Shown: one piece after another, positions 24,858 to 29,461 of the stretch | Layout: each line of letters opens with the position of its first letter | Position numbering within the stretch: position 1 is the first letter of the stretch | Assembly (NCBI GenBank): GCA_030831965.1 | Contig: JAURJZ010000008.1 | Coordinates: 1 to 47,698, forward strand | Source: Verrucomicrobiota bacterium | GTDB taxonomy: Bacteria; Verrucomicrobiota; Verrucomicrobiia; Opitutales; UBA953 | Length of the DNA: 47,698 bases | Reading direction: 5' to 3' | Program-made: the position numbers and the translations under genes | The notes under the pieces: model-generated | The model's database searches: none | Told to the model about the DNA's origin: nothing | Seen by the model: the letters and a program-made list of their open reading frames with translations, nothing else

Positions 24858-25772
24858 TCAGCGGTCGGAGAGAATCTCCGACAGCGGCACGGCGAAGAGC
24901 GCGCCCTCCTCCGAGCCAAGGAGGAGCGTCCTCTCATCCACCCAGGCGCAACCCTCGAGCTGCCACTGCGCGGCCGGCGGCTGCAGCAGGCGGGCGTGCG
25001 CGGGGCCCGACAGCGGATTGTCCGGCGCGCCCCTGAGGTCGAAGACCCAGAGCAGCCGGTAGGTCAGCACCGCCAGCCAGCGCCCGTCGGGCGAGACCGA
25101 GGCGTCCGTCACCATGCCCCTCGCCTCCATCGCGCCGACCTGCGTGAGGAAGGCGCGGGAGCCGCTGGGCGGCACCTCCGCCCGCCAGACCGTCGTGCGC
25201 GTGTCCCTCCGGTGCTTCGTCAGCAGGTGAACGCGCCCCTTGTGCAGGAAGATCGCCTCGCAGTCATGGCGCAGCTCCGGGTCGGGGAACTCGCGTTGGT
25301 CGGGCCAGGAGAACGCCACCTGCCTGGCCGGCGCCGTCGAGGCCGACCCGGGGATGGGCTCGGGCACGATCAGCAGGTTGAGCTCGCGCCGGCGCGAGAG
25401 ATTGTTGCCGACGTCGCCCACCACCAGGTTGCCCGCGCCATCCTCGCCCAGCGCCTCCCAGTCGAGGTTCCGCGCGCCCGGCAGCTCGGCGCCCAGGTAG
25501 CCGGGGCCGGCCGCCCCCGCGACCACGAGGCCGGTGGCGCGGACGGGCACGAGGCGGGCGGGCCCGCCCGAGTCGCTCAGCGCCCAGAAGGTCCGCGGGT
25601 GCCGCCGGCTGGCCAGGAGCGCCGAGCACTCGGGGACCGACCTGCGGTCCAGGTTACCCGAGGCGCGCAGCGGAAGGGCCGGACGGTCGGGAACCGCGGG
25701 GCTGAGCACGGGGAAATCGGCGCCCGCGGCGAGGAACGGGACCGCCAGGAGCAGCGAGGCGGCGAGGCGCAT
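24858..25772 (-). CDS. Exported beta-propeller-like protein of unknown function
   Basis: This 304-residue protein has the signal peptide MRLAASLLLAVPFLAAGA. The mature part has repeated four-strand blocks. It has the block LDWEALGEDGAGNLVVGDVGNN, which matches the D-W-E-D-x-A ... G-D-x-G-D-N pattern of phytase-like or esterase-like beta-propellers. Later blades are EAIFLHKGRVHLLTKHRRDTRTTVWR, VSPDGRWLAVLTYRLLWVF and WVDERTLLLGSEEGALF. Function is unproven and could be phosphoesterase-like or purely structural. It converges on tkt (4-nt gap) and is divergent from ruvC across 89 nt. Confidence 0.72.
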   Translation of the reverse strand: MRLAASLLLAVPFLAAGADFPVLSPAVPDRPALPLRASGNLDRRSVPECSALLASRRHPRTFWALSDSGGPARLVPVRATGLVVAGAAGPGYLGAELPGARNLDWEALGEDGAGNLVVGDVGNNLSRRRELNLLIVPEPIPGSASTAPARQVAFSWPDQREFPDPELRHDCEAIFLHKGRVHLLTKHRRDTRTTVWRAEVPPSGSRAFLTQVGAMEARGMVTDASVSPDGRWLAVLTYRLLWVFDLRGAPDNPLSGPAHARLLQPPAAQWQLEGCAWVDERTLLLGSEEGALFAVPLSEILSDR

Positions 25773-25861
25773 CCGCCCATCCTCGCCGGGCGGGCAAGGC
25801 CGGGCAAGGACATTGCCGCCTTTTCTGCTGACCAATCGCCCGGGCATCGCCACCTTGGGGC

Positions 25862-26452
25862 GTGGCCCGAACCTCCGCCCGCGCCCTCTGGACCGCCGCC
25901 CTCCGCGGAGGCGCCCTTCGGCCATCCAACCCGCCGCGTCGCGCCTCGACCCATCCCGCCGGCTCCGCGCGCGGTTTCCGCGGCGTCGTCCTGGGCATCG
26001 ACCCCTCCCTGCGCGGCACCGGGCTAGCCGTCGTCGACCTCGCGGCGGCCGAGCCCCGGCTGCTCGAGAGCCGAACCCTCGGTCTGGGTCCCTCCGCCGC
26101 CGCCCCCCTCTGCCTGGCGGAGATCCATGCCGCCGTGTCCGACCTCATCGCGCGGCACCGCGTGCGGGCCGTCGCCGTCGAGTCCACCGTCTACGTGCAG
26201 AACCTCCGCACCGTGGCCACCCTCGGCGCCTCGCGCGGGGCCGCCCTCGCCGCGGCGGGCGCGGCGGAGATCGCCGTGGCGGAGTATGCGCCCACCCGCG
26301 TCAAGCAGGCGGTGGCGGGCAACGGCAAGGCCGCGAAGGACCAGGTCGCCCGCATGGTCGCCGCCCTGCTCAAGCTTCCCCGCGAGCTGCCCCTCGACGA
26401 ATCGGACGCCGCCGCGGTGGCGCTCTGCCACGGCTGGACCGCCCGGGGCTAA
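25862..26452 (+). CDS. ruvC: Holliday-junction resolvase RuvC
   Basis: It cuts Holliday junctions symmetrically during recombination repair, with RuvAB. The RuvC core starts at about residue 41 (GVVLGIDPSLRGTG). The four-acid active site is visible: Asp in GIDPS, Glu in VAVESTVYVQN, and the two Asp of LDESDAAAVALCHG. The total of 196 residues exceeds the usual 170-175 because of a 40-residue basic, Pro-rich N-terminal extension from GTG 25862. No closer ATG or GTG exists ahead of the core, so the extension is probably real. Its stop overlaps the convergent fusion-protein gene by 4 nt. ruvA and ruvB are not adjacent. Confidence 0.9.
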   Translation: MARTSARALWTAALRGGALRPSNPPRRASTHPAGSARGFRGVVLGIDPSLRGTGLAVVDLAAAEPRLLESRTLGLGPSAAAPLCLAEIHAAVSDLIARHRVRAVAVESTVYVQNLRTVATLGASRGAALAAAGAAEIAVAEYAPTRVKQAVAGNGKAAKDQVARMVAALLKLPRELPLDESDAAAVALCHGWTARG

Positions 26453-28980
26453 CCCGCGATCCGATAGCCGTCGGTCCGGCCCGTCACCGCGGCGCGCCGG
26501 GCGAGCAGCTCCGCCCAGGCCACCTTGCGCAGGCCCTGGTCGAGGTTGGCGTGGCCCGCCGCGAACTGGCGGCTGAGCTGGCGCCAGGTCGCCGGGACCT
26601 CCTCGCGCAGGGGCGCAAGGCGGTCGCGGATCAGGCTGGAGACCGAGCCGGCTCCCTCGACCTCGGTGACACGGAAACGCCCCTCGGCGAGTTCCGCCTC
26701 CGAGGCGGCCCTCAGGTCGAGGCGGGCGTGGTGAAGCCCCGGGTAGCTCCGGCAATAGCCGTCCAGCGCGTCGCGCAGCGCGGTCGTCTCGAGGTACGCG
26801 CGACGACGGGGCCTCGCTCCGTGCTCCCACGAGCCGGAGACATCGAGACGCACCACCTCGCCGGCGGCCGGCACGCGCATGAGCGAGCGGTAGTGAATCC
26901 GCTGGTAAAGGTCGGCCCTGGCCACGGCGAAGGGATCGTCCCAGATCAGGGACTCGAGGCTGCGACGGCTGTCGCCCACCACCTCCACGGCGCATTTCTC
27001 GACCACGGCCACGAGCTCGCCGACCGAGGCGCCCGGATCGCGTCTCCAGACCACCTCGAACTCGCGCCCGGGCAGCCAAGGCTGGAGCAGCCAGCCCTCG
27101 GCCAAGGCTGCCTCGCCCAGGGCCGAACGCAGGGCGGGCTCGTCGGCCAGCCGCAGCAGGCCCGCGCCGCCCGCGCCCAGCTCGGGCTTGAGCGCCAGCG
27201 GATAGCCATGGCGGGCGGCGAAGGCCAGCGCCGGGGCCAGGCCCGGCGAACCCGCCTCGAGGCGGATGAACGGGCAGGTGCGCGGATCGGCCGCGAAGGG
27301 CTCGAGCAGGTCGCCCTTGGCGTCGCCGACGGCGCCCCCGAGGCGGCCGAATCCCGGATTGGCGGCCGAGGGGGCGGTCACCCGGCCGCGAAGCACGGCC
27401 GGCAGGTAGAGGGCGGCGCGCAGCGGCAGGAGACGGATGCCCGCCGGCCAGAGATCGGTCCGCAACAGGCGGGTGACGCGCATCAGGACCTCGCGGCGGC
27501 CGCGGTGCGTCAGCAGGGGCAGGACCCAGTGGGTGAACAGCCAGATGGCCAGCAGGGCGCCGAGGATGATCCAGGCGGCGTGCTGCTTGTACTTCGGGAA
27601 CTGCTCCATGAACGGGGGCCCGAAGGTGTGCCCGAGCCACATCAGGACGGGCGTCCAGACCAGGGCGGCGACGAAGAGGAGGAGGCCGAGGCGGGGAAGG
27701 CTCAGGCGGAGGATGCCCGCGGTGACGAACGTCGGCACGCGGCTGGCGGGGATGAAGCGCGAGCTGACGATGACCATCATCCCGCGGGGCGAGCTGAACC
27801 AGGCCGCCATCCGGTCGATCTCATGCTCCTGCACCATCCAGCGCAGCGGCGGCACGCGCAGCGCCCTCCGCCCGAGGGTGTAGCCGGCCAGGTAGAGCAC
27901 CATGTCGCCGATGAAGATGCCCACGGTGCACGCGAGGGCCGCCCACCAGAAGCCGATGATGCCCTCCGCCGCCAGCAGGCCGCAGGCCAGGCAGGTCGGG
28001 TCCTCGGCCACGAACGTGCAGACCGCGATGACCGTCATCAGGATCCAGAACCGCGACCCCATCGACGTCACCAGCTCCGGCCAGGGCGCCCCGTCCGGGG
28101 CGGGCTCGGCGCGTCGCCGGGCTCGCCCCGCGTCCGCCTCCGCGTGGAAGGCGGACAAGGCGCGCGCCGCCGCGGCCGGGTCGGCCAGGTCGCGGCCGCC
28201 GGGCAGCTCGACGACCGAGGCCTGGGGCGCGAGGCGGGCGGTGTAGCGGGCCGCGTCGGGCGGCGTCACCCAGTTGTCGGCGCCGTGCACGACGAGCAGC
28301 GGGCCCTGCCAGGCCCGGAGAAAGCCGCGGCTCTCGCTCAGGTCGCTGTCGAAGAAGACGGCCGAGTAGGCGCGGTTGGCCGAGGCCTCGTGGAGGAGGC
28401 CGAAGTGGGGAAGCAGGCGGTCGGCCAGGAAGAAGGGGAGGTGGTGGAAGAAATAGACGAACTTGTTCGCGACCGCGTTGCCGAGCAGCGTGTACTCCTG
28501 GGAGCCGGGCGAGTTGACCATGGCGGCCGAGCGAACCAAGCCCGGATGGCGGGCAGCCAGCTCGGCGACCACCACCCCGCCCATGCCCTCCCCGACCCAA
28601 TGATGGCCGCGGTTGGCGAGCGCGGGCTGACCGTCGACAAGGGTCGCAAGCTCGGCGACCAGGCCGTGCGTCGAGTAATCCTCCCGGGGGGAGCGGAACG
28701 AGGACCTCGGCCATTCCACGCGCCACACCGGCGCCGAGGTGGCGCCGAGAATCGCCTGGCAAAGCCCGGAATCCGCGCGCGGGTCCGGCAGCCGCGGCAC
28801 GACAATGACCGGCGCGCCGGTCCCGGCATCCCGGACGCGGACCAGCCTCGGCCCTGGATCGACGGGCTCGCGAGACGACTGCCAGGCCCACGACGCCGCC
28901 AGCAGGAGCAGATAGGCGCCGATGAACCAGAGCTTCCGCGGCAAGCGGAAGGCCTCGGCGGGCGCGGTGGGCGTCGACAT
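26449..28980 (-). CDS. Three-domain fusion: alpha/beta-hydrolase-like, DedA/VTT membrane domain, ATP-grasp-like domain
   Basis: This 843-residue inner-membrane protein is continuous, with no frameshift. Residues 17-33 are one TM helix. Residues about 55-280 have alpha/beta-hydrolase order (HHWVGEGMGGVVVAELAARHP, then LLVVHGADNWVTPPDAARY), but the nucleophile elbow is G-E-G-M-G, with Gly132 where Ser is expected, and the His position reads GGRD (Arg263). Residues about 305-490 form a DedA/VTT domain with GDMVLYLAGYTLGRR and SSRFIPASRVPTFVTAGILR. Residues about 540-800 look ATP-grasp-like: YPLALKPELGAGGAGLL, WLLQPWLPGREFEVVWR, HARLDLR and FRVTEVEGAGS. DedA proteins flip phospholipids or carrier lipids. 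A guess is lipid-linked substrate handling at the inner membrane. The ATG at 28980 was chosen since upstream sequence overlaps apaG. It is divergent from apaG. Confidence 0.8.
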   Translation of the reverse strand: MSTPTAPAEAFRLPRKLWFIGAYLLLLAASWAWQSSREPVDPGPRLVRVRDAGTGAPVIVVPRLPDPRADSGLCQAILGATSAPVWRVEWPRSSFRSPREDYSTHGLVAELATLVDGQPALANRGHHWVGEGMGGVVVAELAARHPGLVRSAAMVNSPGSQEYTLLGNAVANKFVYFFHHLPFFLADRLLPHFGLLHEASANRAYSAVFFDSDLSESRGFLRAWQGPLLVVHGADNWVTPPDAARYTARLAPQASVVELPGGRDLADPAAAARALSAFHAEADAGRARRRAEPAPDGAPWPELVTSMGSRFWILMTVIAVCTFVAEDPTCLACGLLAAEGIIGFWWAALACTVGIFIGDMVLYLAGYTLGRRALRVPPLRWMVQEHEIDRMAAWFSSPRGMMVIVSSRFIPASRVPTFVTAGILRLSLPRLGLLLFVAALVWTPVLMWLGHTFGPPFMEQFPKYKQHAAWIILGALLAIWLFTHWVLPLLTHRGRREVLMRVTRLLRTDLWPAGIRLLPLRAALYLPAVLRGRVTAPSAANPGFGRLGGAVGDAKGDLLEPFAADPRTCPFIRLEAGSPGLAPALAFAARHGYPLALKPELGAGGAGLLRLADEPALRSALGEAALAEGWLLQPWLPGREFEVVWRRDPGASVGELVAVVEKCAVEVVGDSRRSLESLIWDDPFAVARADLYQRIHYRSLMRVPAAGEVVRLDVSGSWEHGARPRRRAYLETTALRDALDGYCRSYPGLHHARLDLRAASEAELAEGRFRVTEVEGAGSVSSLIRDRLAPLREEVPATWRQLSRQFAAGHANLDQGLRKVAWAELLARRAAVTGRTDGYRIAG

Positions 28981-29068
28981 CGGGCCGAACCCTGTGGGCT
29001 CGCCCGAGGGAGGGCAAGCGGAGTCGCATTTTTCTTCCTCCCGGGGCCGGGTTGGGGTTCGCTGTGCC

Positions 29069-29461
29069 ATGCCCACCAAGGGTTCGCTCGAGCTGCCCGG
29101 CCTCAGGGTCGCGGTGGAGAAGGTCATCCACCACCGGGGCCCCGACTTCCCCGCCGCGACCCCCCACGCCTTCGTGTACTTCCTCGCCATCGCCAACCTC
29201 TCCGACCGCACCGTCACCCTCCGGGGCAGGAAGTGGATCCTCCGGCCCGCCGAGGGCCCCGTCGAGGTGGTCGAGGGCGACGGCATCGTCGGCCAGACGC
29301 CCGTGCTGCGGCCGGGCGAGGTCTTCCGCTACAACAGCTACCACCTGACGGACGGTCGACCGCTCGTGGCCAGCGGCGCCTTCCACGGGCTCGACGACGC
29401 CGGCCAACCCGTCCACACCCTCATTCCCGACATCCCGATGACCGCACCCGACTCGCCCTGA
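29069..29461 (+). CDS. apaG: ApaG domain protein
   Basis: This is a 130-residue single-domain ApaG/DUF525 protein, an immunoglobulin-like beta fold. Diagnostic segments are VYFLAIANLSDRTVTLRGRKWIL, VEVVEGDGIVGQTPVLRPGEVFRY and SGAFHG. ApaG is linked to cobalt/magnesium resistance phenotypes in enteric bacteria and resembles domains that read protein or nucleotide ligands; its biochemical role is unclear. The stop shares one base with the start of the next gene (TGATG), so it is co-translated with the metallo-hydrolase. Residues between FRY and SGAFHG are rewritten relative to the usual Y-x-S-G-C-P-L. Confidence 0.86.
   Translation: MPTKGSLELPGLRVAVEKVIHHRGPDFPAATPHAFVYFLAIANLSDRTVTLRGRKWILRPAEGPVEVVEGDGIVGQTPVLRPGEVFRYNSYHLTDGRPLVASGAFHGLDDAGQPVHTLIPDIPMTAPDSP

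Follow-up and report, generated by a model that had tools for sequence, protein, structure and literature searches.

A stretch of 47,698 nucleotides from a Verrucomicrobiota bacterium (contig JAURJZ010000008.1 of assembly GCA_030831965.1), here called the window, contains a gene that encodes an alpha/beta-hydrolase fold, a DedA (VTT) membrane domain, and an ATP-grasp fold in one polypeptide. We confirmed this three-domain architecture. Its residues indicate that the window protein probably functions as a DedA transporter that has kept two pseudo-enzyme domains; the combined ligase-flippase activity that had been proposed for the gene from its letters alone (the sequence-only reading) is unlikely. 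Relatives outside the window's family, which we designate f1, have a complete ATP-grasp site and commonly lie in a conserved gene cluster, and this wider family with its cluster is the valuable part of the finding. The best overall explanation, which we hold with about even confidence, is that the active-type relatives belong to an aminolipid pathway from which the window lineage has kept only the transporter.

The fusion gene and its domains

The gene is read from position 28980 to position 26449 on the minus strand, with an ATG start and 843 codons plus a stop. The plus strand of the same interval gave only a low-complexity antisense translation, and a 1761-amino-acid plus-strand open reading frame (ORF) was rejected as an antisense artifact of high GC content. 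Two of the domains exceeded their Pfam gathering scores: the hydrolase domain matched PF00561 (Abhydrolase_1; E = 3e-10, 40.4 bits versus 25.8) and the DedA domain matched PF09335 (VTT_dom; E = 1e-13, 52.1 bits versus 33.9). The ATP-grasp domain of the window protein was below threshold (best model CPSase_L_D2, E = 0.056, 13.4 of 19.8 bits), and no curated Pfam or NCBIfam ATP-grasp model reached its cutoff.

A profile of the C-terminal domain built from relatives, however, retrieved cyanophycin synthetases, glutathione synthetases, and D-Ala-D-Ala ligases. The AlphaFold model of the window protein was based on 40 aligned sequences and had a mean predicted local distance difference test (pLDDT) score of 89 and a predicted template modeling (pTM) score of 0.76. 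In Foldseek searches, its ATP-grasp part matched the D-alanyl-alanine synthetase Ddl (3i12), and its hydrolase part matched alpha/beta hydrolases, including Rv0554/BpoC and ABHD6 (probability, 1.00). When the ATP-grasp domain of an intact relative was modeled, the nearest folds were the cyanophycin synthetase, glutathione, and Ddl peptide ligases. Because the relatives' profile and the modeled folds both recovered ATP-grasp, the domain is real despite the Pfam miss, and a false call was ruled out. The absence of this fold from the C-terminal part was one way in which the sequence-only reading could have failed; an artificially joined frame was another. Since orthologues in many independent assemblies have the same frame and the same domain order, chance or a joining artifact is excluded.

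The distribution of charged residues bears on topology. Arg and Lys residues precede the first helix, which would place the N terminus inside and the hydrolase outside, and a strongly basic stretch (residues 490 to 535) follows the last DedA helix, which would leave the ATP-grasp domain inside, where ATP is. Periplasmic entry is also supported by two-domain relatives in which signal-peptide-like N termini precede the DedA domain (L021 and L023; in the alignment L027 appears to be similar). Members of this ATP-grasp family begin with a hydrophobic, probably membrane-proximal segment.

Catalytic residues, selection, and locus in f1

We compared residues in 40 aligned proteins, 17 from f1 and 23 from relatives outside it; f1 formed one clade in the tree (support, 100/100). 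The hydrolase triad of the window protein is entirely replaced (S132G, D236N, and H263R). All 17 f1 proteins have the Ser-to-Gly change, and the catalytic Asp and His are also missing in the window protein and L031. Outside f1, the nucleophilic Ser is present in 13 of 16 three-domain proteins. The likeness of the family to alpha/beta-hydrolase esterases and lipases extends beyond the fold to Ser-Asp-His in most three-domain relatives outside f1, but in the window protein it does not. A second group, family f28, lost the Ser independently of f1; at its loci L018, L019, and L024 the motif reads ANGHAG, the ATP-grasp site is intact, and DinB-like and TANGO2-like genes lie together elsewhere in the genome.

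The ATP-grasp domain of the window protein has four changes (R604G, H718W, R720H, and N775E), all at positions that are invariant among the active-type relatives. The site consists of Lys, Lys, Glu, Asp, Glu, and Asn; the window protein retains the first five (ATP-binding Lys598 and Lys662, plus Glu640, Asp755, and Glu773) and has lost Asn775, whereas the site is complete in all 23 relatives outside f1. Within f1, R604, H718 (replaced by W, Y, or R), and N775 (by E, G, or K) are changed in every protein. In all but one of the 17, R720 is replaced as well, mostly by His but by Lys in L004 and L005; L006 retains the Arg. These last three proteins are additionally changed at the metal-ligand Glu (to Gly or Ser) and at R753. 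The relatives outside f1 share both fold and site with cyanophycin synthetase, glutathione synthetase, and D-Ala-D-Ala ligase; the family differs from these carboxylate-amine ligases in its membrane-proximal N-terminal segment, and the window copy differs also in its lost Asn and three other invariant residues. The lost residues predict that both window enzymes are inactive, although they do not prove it.

The DedA domain gave the opposite picture. The window protein retains E326, D359, R408, and R414, and the acidic residues and both arginines are present in all 40 aligned rows, except for Glu-to-Asp changes in two. The ratios of nonsynonymous to synonymous substitutions (dN/dS) between the window gene and its nearest relative were 0.09 for VTT, 0.30 for ATP-grasp, and 0.42 for the hydrolase, as calculated by the Nei-Gojobori method, a simple counting method, at moderate dS. 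Across f1 pairs the values were 0.04 to 0.42 in every domain. All three domains are constrained, the DedA domain most. Its best NCBIfam model was the UptA equivalog NF052604 (E = 3e-14), with 53.4 of the 250 bits needed to reach the cutoff. The resemblance to COG0586-type UptA thus includes the PF09335 match, the Glu/Asp residues, and the arginines of R-F-x-P-x-x-R; the low score and the two extra domains set the window protein apart. This DedA subfamily has been assigned to undecaprenyl phosphate (UndP), and the COG0586 fusions named in that work have rhodanese and PAP2 as partners (PMC10127716). The fusion is not the only DedA of its genome: two ordinary DedA genes are present (G000:C56:8247-8639 and G000:C25:2069-2416), and at least one was found in each of the six f1 genomes searched. 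The DUF368-type UndP transporter (PF04018) was not found in f1 genomes.

The position of the fusion between ruvC and apaG, reported by the sequence-only reading, proved to be fixed in the branch of f1 that holds the window, with transketolase and rpoN also close by wherever the flanks extend far enough. The 1.5-kb flanks of the f1 loci L004 to L006 showed neither ruvC nor apaG. The fusion is present in all six f1 genomes searched, and 17 further contigs that group with f1 by sequence carry it (L043 is truncated by the end of its contig, and the frame of L044 appears to be interrupted). Adjoining ruvC is another conserved f1 gene (window positions 24858 to 25925, minus strand) with a signal-peptide-like start, MRLAASLLLAVPFLAAGA.

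Table 1. Positions of the fusion gene, its domains and replaced residues, and its neighbors in the window
Feature	Position	Strand	Basis
Fusion gene, 843 amino acids: N-terminal transmembrane helix, alpha/beta-hydrolase fold, DedA/VTT domain, ATP-grasp fold	26449..28980	-	Pfam, AlphaFold, orthologues
N-terminal transmembrane helix, residues 15-36	28873..28938	-	AlphaFold helix; charge counts; topology inferred
Alpha/beta-hydrolase-fold domain, residues 40-290, inferred periplasmic	28111..28863	-	Pfam PF00561; Foldseek
DedA/VTT membrane domain, residues 308-490	27511..28059	-	Pfam PF09335; NCBIfam UptA model (subthreshold); conserved residues; dN/dS
ATP-grasp-fold domain and membrane-proximal N-terminal segment, residues 500-815, inferred cytoplasmic	26536..27483	-	Profile matches, folds
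Residue 132, hydrolase nucleophile Ser to Gly (GEGMGG; relatives GYSQGG)	28585..28587	-	
Residue 236, hydrolase catalytic Asp to Asn	28273..28275	-	
Residue 263, hydrolase catalytic His to Arg	28192..28194	-	
Residue 720, invariant Arg of ATP-grasp G-T-H-C-R-G motif to His	26821..26823	-	
Residue 775, metal-ligand Asn of ATP-grasp E-x-N to Glu (TEVEG; relatives IELNG)	26656..26658	-	
ruvC, convergent neighbor of fusion gene, 4-bp overlap	25862..26452	+	
apaG ORF, divergent neighbor of fusion gene; true start probably further in	28922..29461	+	

Distribution and partner genes of the wider family

Among 388 Verrucomicrobiota genomes surveyed, about 40 clearly matched this ATP-grasp family; a few of these have broken or partial copies. 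Many have the full three-domain fusion, others have DedA plus ATP-grasp, and a few have ATP-grasp alone; the domain order singled out by the sequence-only reading thus occurs in many genomes, all f1 genomes searched among them, but it is not universal. In two genomes of genus g27, the ATP-grasp copies are broken by internal stops (G224:C1:1518216-1519173 and G311:C2:35899-36755), and the module is therefore dispensable. Outside the phylum, on plasmids of Pseudomonadota, the parts occur in other arrangements: separate side-by-side genes for ATP-grasp, alpha/beta hydrolase, and VTT in Paracoccus denitrificans (plasmid 1 of the laboratory strain PD1222), an overlapping VTT and ATP-grasp gene pair in Salinivibrio, and a VTT-ATP-grasp fusion in Azospirillum. 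Acetic-acid bacteria (Komagataeibacter) have a standalone homologue.

Outside f1, the gene belongs to a conserved cluster consisting of a DinB-like gene, a gene of the TANGO2/NRDE family, and the DedA-ATP-grasp gene with or without the hydrolase. In Verrucomicrobiota, a DinB_2 gene and a TANGO2-family gene precede the fusion at 12 of the 16 loci with three domains and at 8 of the 12 with two, and a YHS gene is also frequent. At nine verrucomicrobial loci and on plasmids of Vibrio and Variovorax, the ATP-grasp gene has OlsF-, OlsB-, or OlsA-like neighbors. One member, in G229, escaped the Pfam TANGO2 model, and TANGO2-like genes were therefore counted with our own profile. Of the 34 genomes with an ATP-grasp match outside f1, 28 had a TANGO2-like gene, compared with 8 of the 348 genomes without a match (Fisher's P = 1.5e-29, ignoring relatedness), and in 22 of those 28 genomes the two genes were within 3 kb of each other. 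The DinB-like gene showed the same pattern of co-occurrence. Of the eight genomes with a TANGO2-like gene and no ATP-grasp match, four had it 171 to 973 bp from an OlsF/OlsB-like gene. We found no paper describing the fusion or the cluster in the literature searched, coverage of which was incomplete, and the cluster is apparently undescribed.

On the sequence-only reading, the fusion stands alone and the whole activity may therefore be in one polypeptide. The conserved partners of the relatives do not support this. No match to the DinB or TANGO2 profiles was found in any of the six f1 genomes searched, that of the window included, so loss of the partners coincides with decay of the sites; nor were DinB-like, TANGO2-like, or OlsF/OlsB genes found near f1 fusion genes.

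Several further arrangements were seen. The window genome has an OlsF-like aminolipid synthase gene on another contig, unlinked to the fusion (G000:C48:19448-21085, minus strand; L095). TANGO2-family genes adjoin OlsF/OlsB-type synthases even where there is no ATP-grasp gene (G316:C41, G257:C158, G115:C56, and G238:C76; L093, L094, and L056), which is a lead on the substrate of TANGO2. YHS-domain and DoxX-like genes (in Vibrio) and SDR oxidoreductase genes are in or beside the Vibrio and Salinivibrio clusters (L052:10316-11275; L049). Near an ATP-grasp/OlsF pair in G340 is a separate alpha/beta hydrolase (L055:10483-11376) with a weak relationship to the hydrolase domain of the fusion.

Proposed function and its alternatives

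In the active-type relatives, OlsF/OlsB-type synthases would make a lipid that contains an amino acid, or the acyl-amino-acid precursor of such a lipid. The cytoplasmic ATP-grasp domain would probably create an amide linkage at the headgroup of this lipid or precursor, and after the DedA domain has moved the product through the membrane, the hydrolase would act on it outside. The DinB-like protein and the TANGO2-type N-terminal-Cys protein would be partners in the pathway. The window lineage lost these partners, its two enzyme sites decayed, and its gene has a fixed position between ruvC and apaG. Because the partners are lost, the sites are decayed, and the locus is conserved, the window protein is most likely an inner-membrane DedA transporter or scramblase, the flanking pseudo-enzyme domains of which may bind or position lipid. 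In this model the architecture, the folds, the residue losses, and the conservation of the cluster were observed, and we infer the topology, the substrate, the direction, and all catalytic steps.

Headgroup ligation is proposed because the consistent neighbors include enzymes of N-acyl amino-acid lipid synthesis, and our confidence in this chemistry ranges from low to about even. More tentative is the full scheme, in which the intact relatives represent an undescribed pathway: OlsF/OlsB would make an N-acyl amino-acid lipid, the membrane-bound ATP-grasp would add an amine or amino acid to the carboxylate of this lipid, DedA would export the product, and the TANGO2 homologue would be an N-terminal-Cys amidase or acyltransferase acting on the same lipids, with the window lineage as a secondary, transporter-only derivative. 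The bacterial TANGO2-like (PF05742) partners, absent from the window genome, keep N-terminal M-C-T and N-R-D-E, corresponding to Cys2/Asn25/Arg26/Asp27 of the human structure; human TANGO2 was recently described as a likely N-terminal-Cys hydrolase, with structural relatives that act on lipids (PMC13044924). The sequence-only idea that ATP-grasp ligation is coupled to lipid movement by DedA gains support at the family level, where intact relatives lie beside ornithine/glycine-lipid-type synthases (OlsF/OlsB/GlsB), but not for the window gene, with its changed triad and ATP-grasp positions. A lipid precedent for a second headgroup component is cerilipin, the ornithine-taurine aminolipid of Gluconobacter, as cited in PMC4484230 and PMC6669457. 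It is plausibly an amide of the kind that an ATP-grasp ligase could make; it serves here only as an analogy, and nothing ties the gene to it.

Some observations weigh against this account. OlsF/OlsB neighbors occur at only 9 of about 31 non-f1 loci, and many members of the phylum that lack this module also have OlsF-like genes. The OlsF-type scores (363 to 428 bits) are below the NCBI equivalog cutoff of 620 bits, and therefore the lipid could differ. The TANGO2-like/ATP-grasp co-occurrence is uncorrected for phylogeny, and the E-x-E of the window ATP-grasp might still bind metal.

The strongest alternative, although we consider it unlikely, is that the active-type system acts on UndP or a phospholipid, and that the OlsF/OlsB neighbors reflect only shared regulation by membrane stress. 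The assignment of the DedA subfamily to UndP, the subthreshold UptA match, and the lack of an OlsF/OlsB neighbor at most loci favor it. However, the ATP-grasp gene has aminolipid acyltransferase genes as neighbors at the nine loci in Verrucomicrobiota, as well as in Vibrio and Variovorax, such genes also adjoin the partner genes where there is no clear ATP-grasp match (G316, G257, G115, G238, and G158), and all six f1 genomes have another ordinary DedA.

That the window gene is itself an active ligase-flippase is improbable. Its domains are intact, in frame, and under purifying selection, and five site residues are retained, but the whole hydrolase triad is missing, the ATP-grasp changes recur throughout f1 and go further in L004 to L006, and the DinB-like and TANGO2-like partner genes are gone.

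We give similarly little credence to a nonlipid role, in which the ATP-grasp/TANGO2-like/DinB set would make and break a small amide-linked metabolite (a thiol or peptide), with DedA only an anchor or an ion-coupled exporter. The DinB superfamily includes thiol-dependent transferases and the nearest ATP-grasp folds are peptide ligases, but fusion to a lipid-transport fold, the hydrophobic segment with which the ATP-grasp members begin, and the aminolipid synthase neighbors all argue otherwise. Least probable of all, the f1 gene would be a decaying remnant without function, as the loss of sites and partners in f1 and the broken copies in G224 and G311 might suggest, but the long open frames at intact f1 loci, the low dN/dS of each domain, the invariant DedA residues, and the conserved locus argue against this.

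The cargo of the widespread DedA proteins is a matter of debate. A fusion with enzymes on both faces of the membrane, together with an aminolipid-synthase cluster, provides a substrate hypothesis for this branch. The window lineage, in which the transporter was retained while the enzyme sites and partner genes were lost, is a natural experiment. The cluster also connects the bacterial homologues of TANGO2 with the synthesis of N-acyl amino-acid lipids, a lead on a human disease protein. If TANGO2 homologues are indeed aminolipid enzymes, this would point to the substrate class of human TANGO2.

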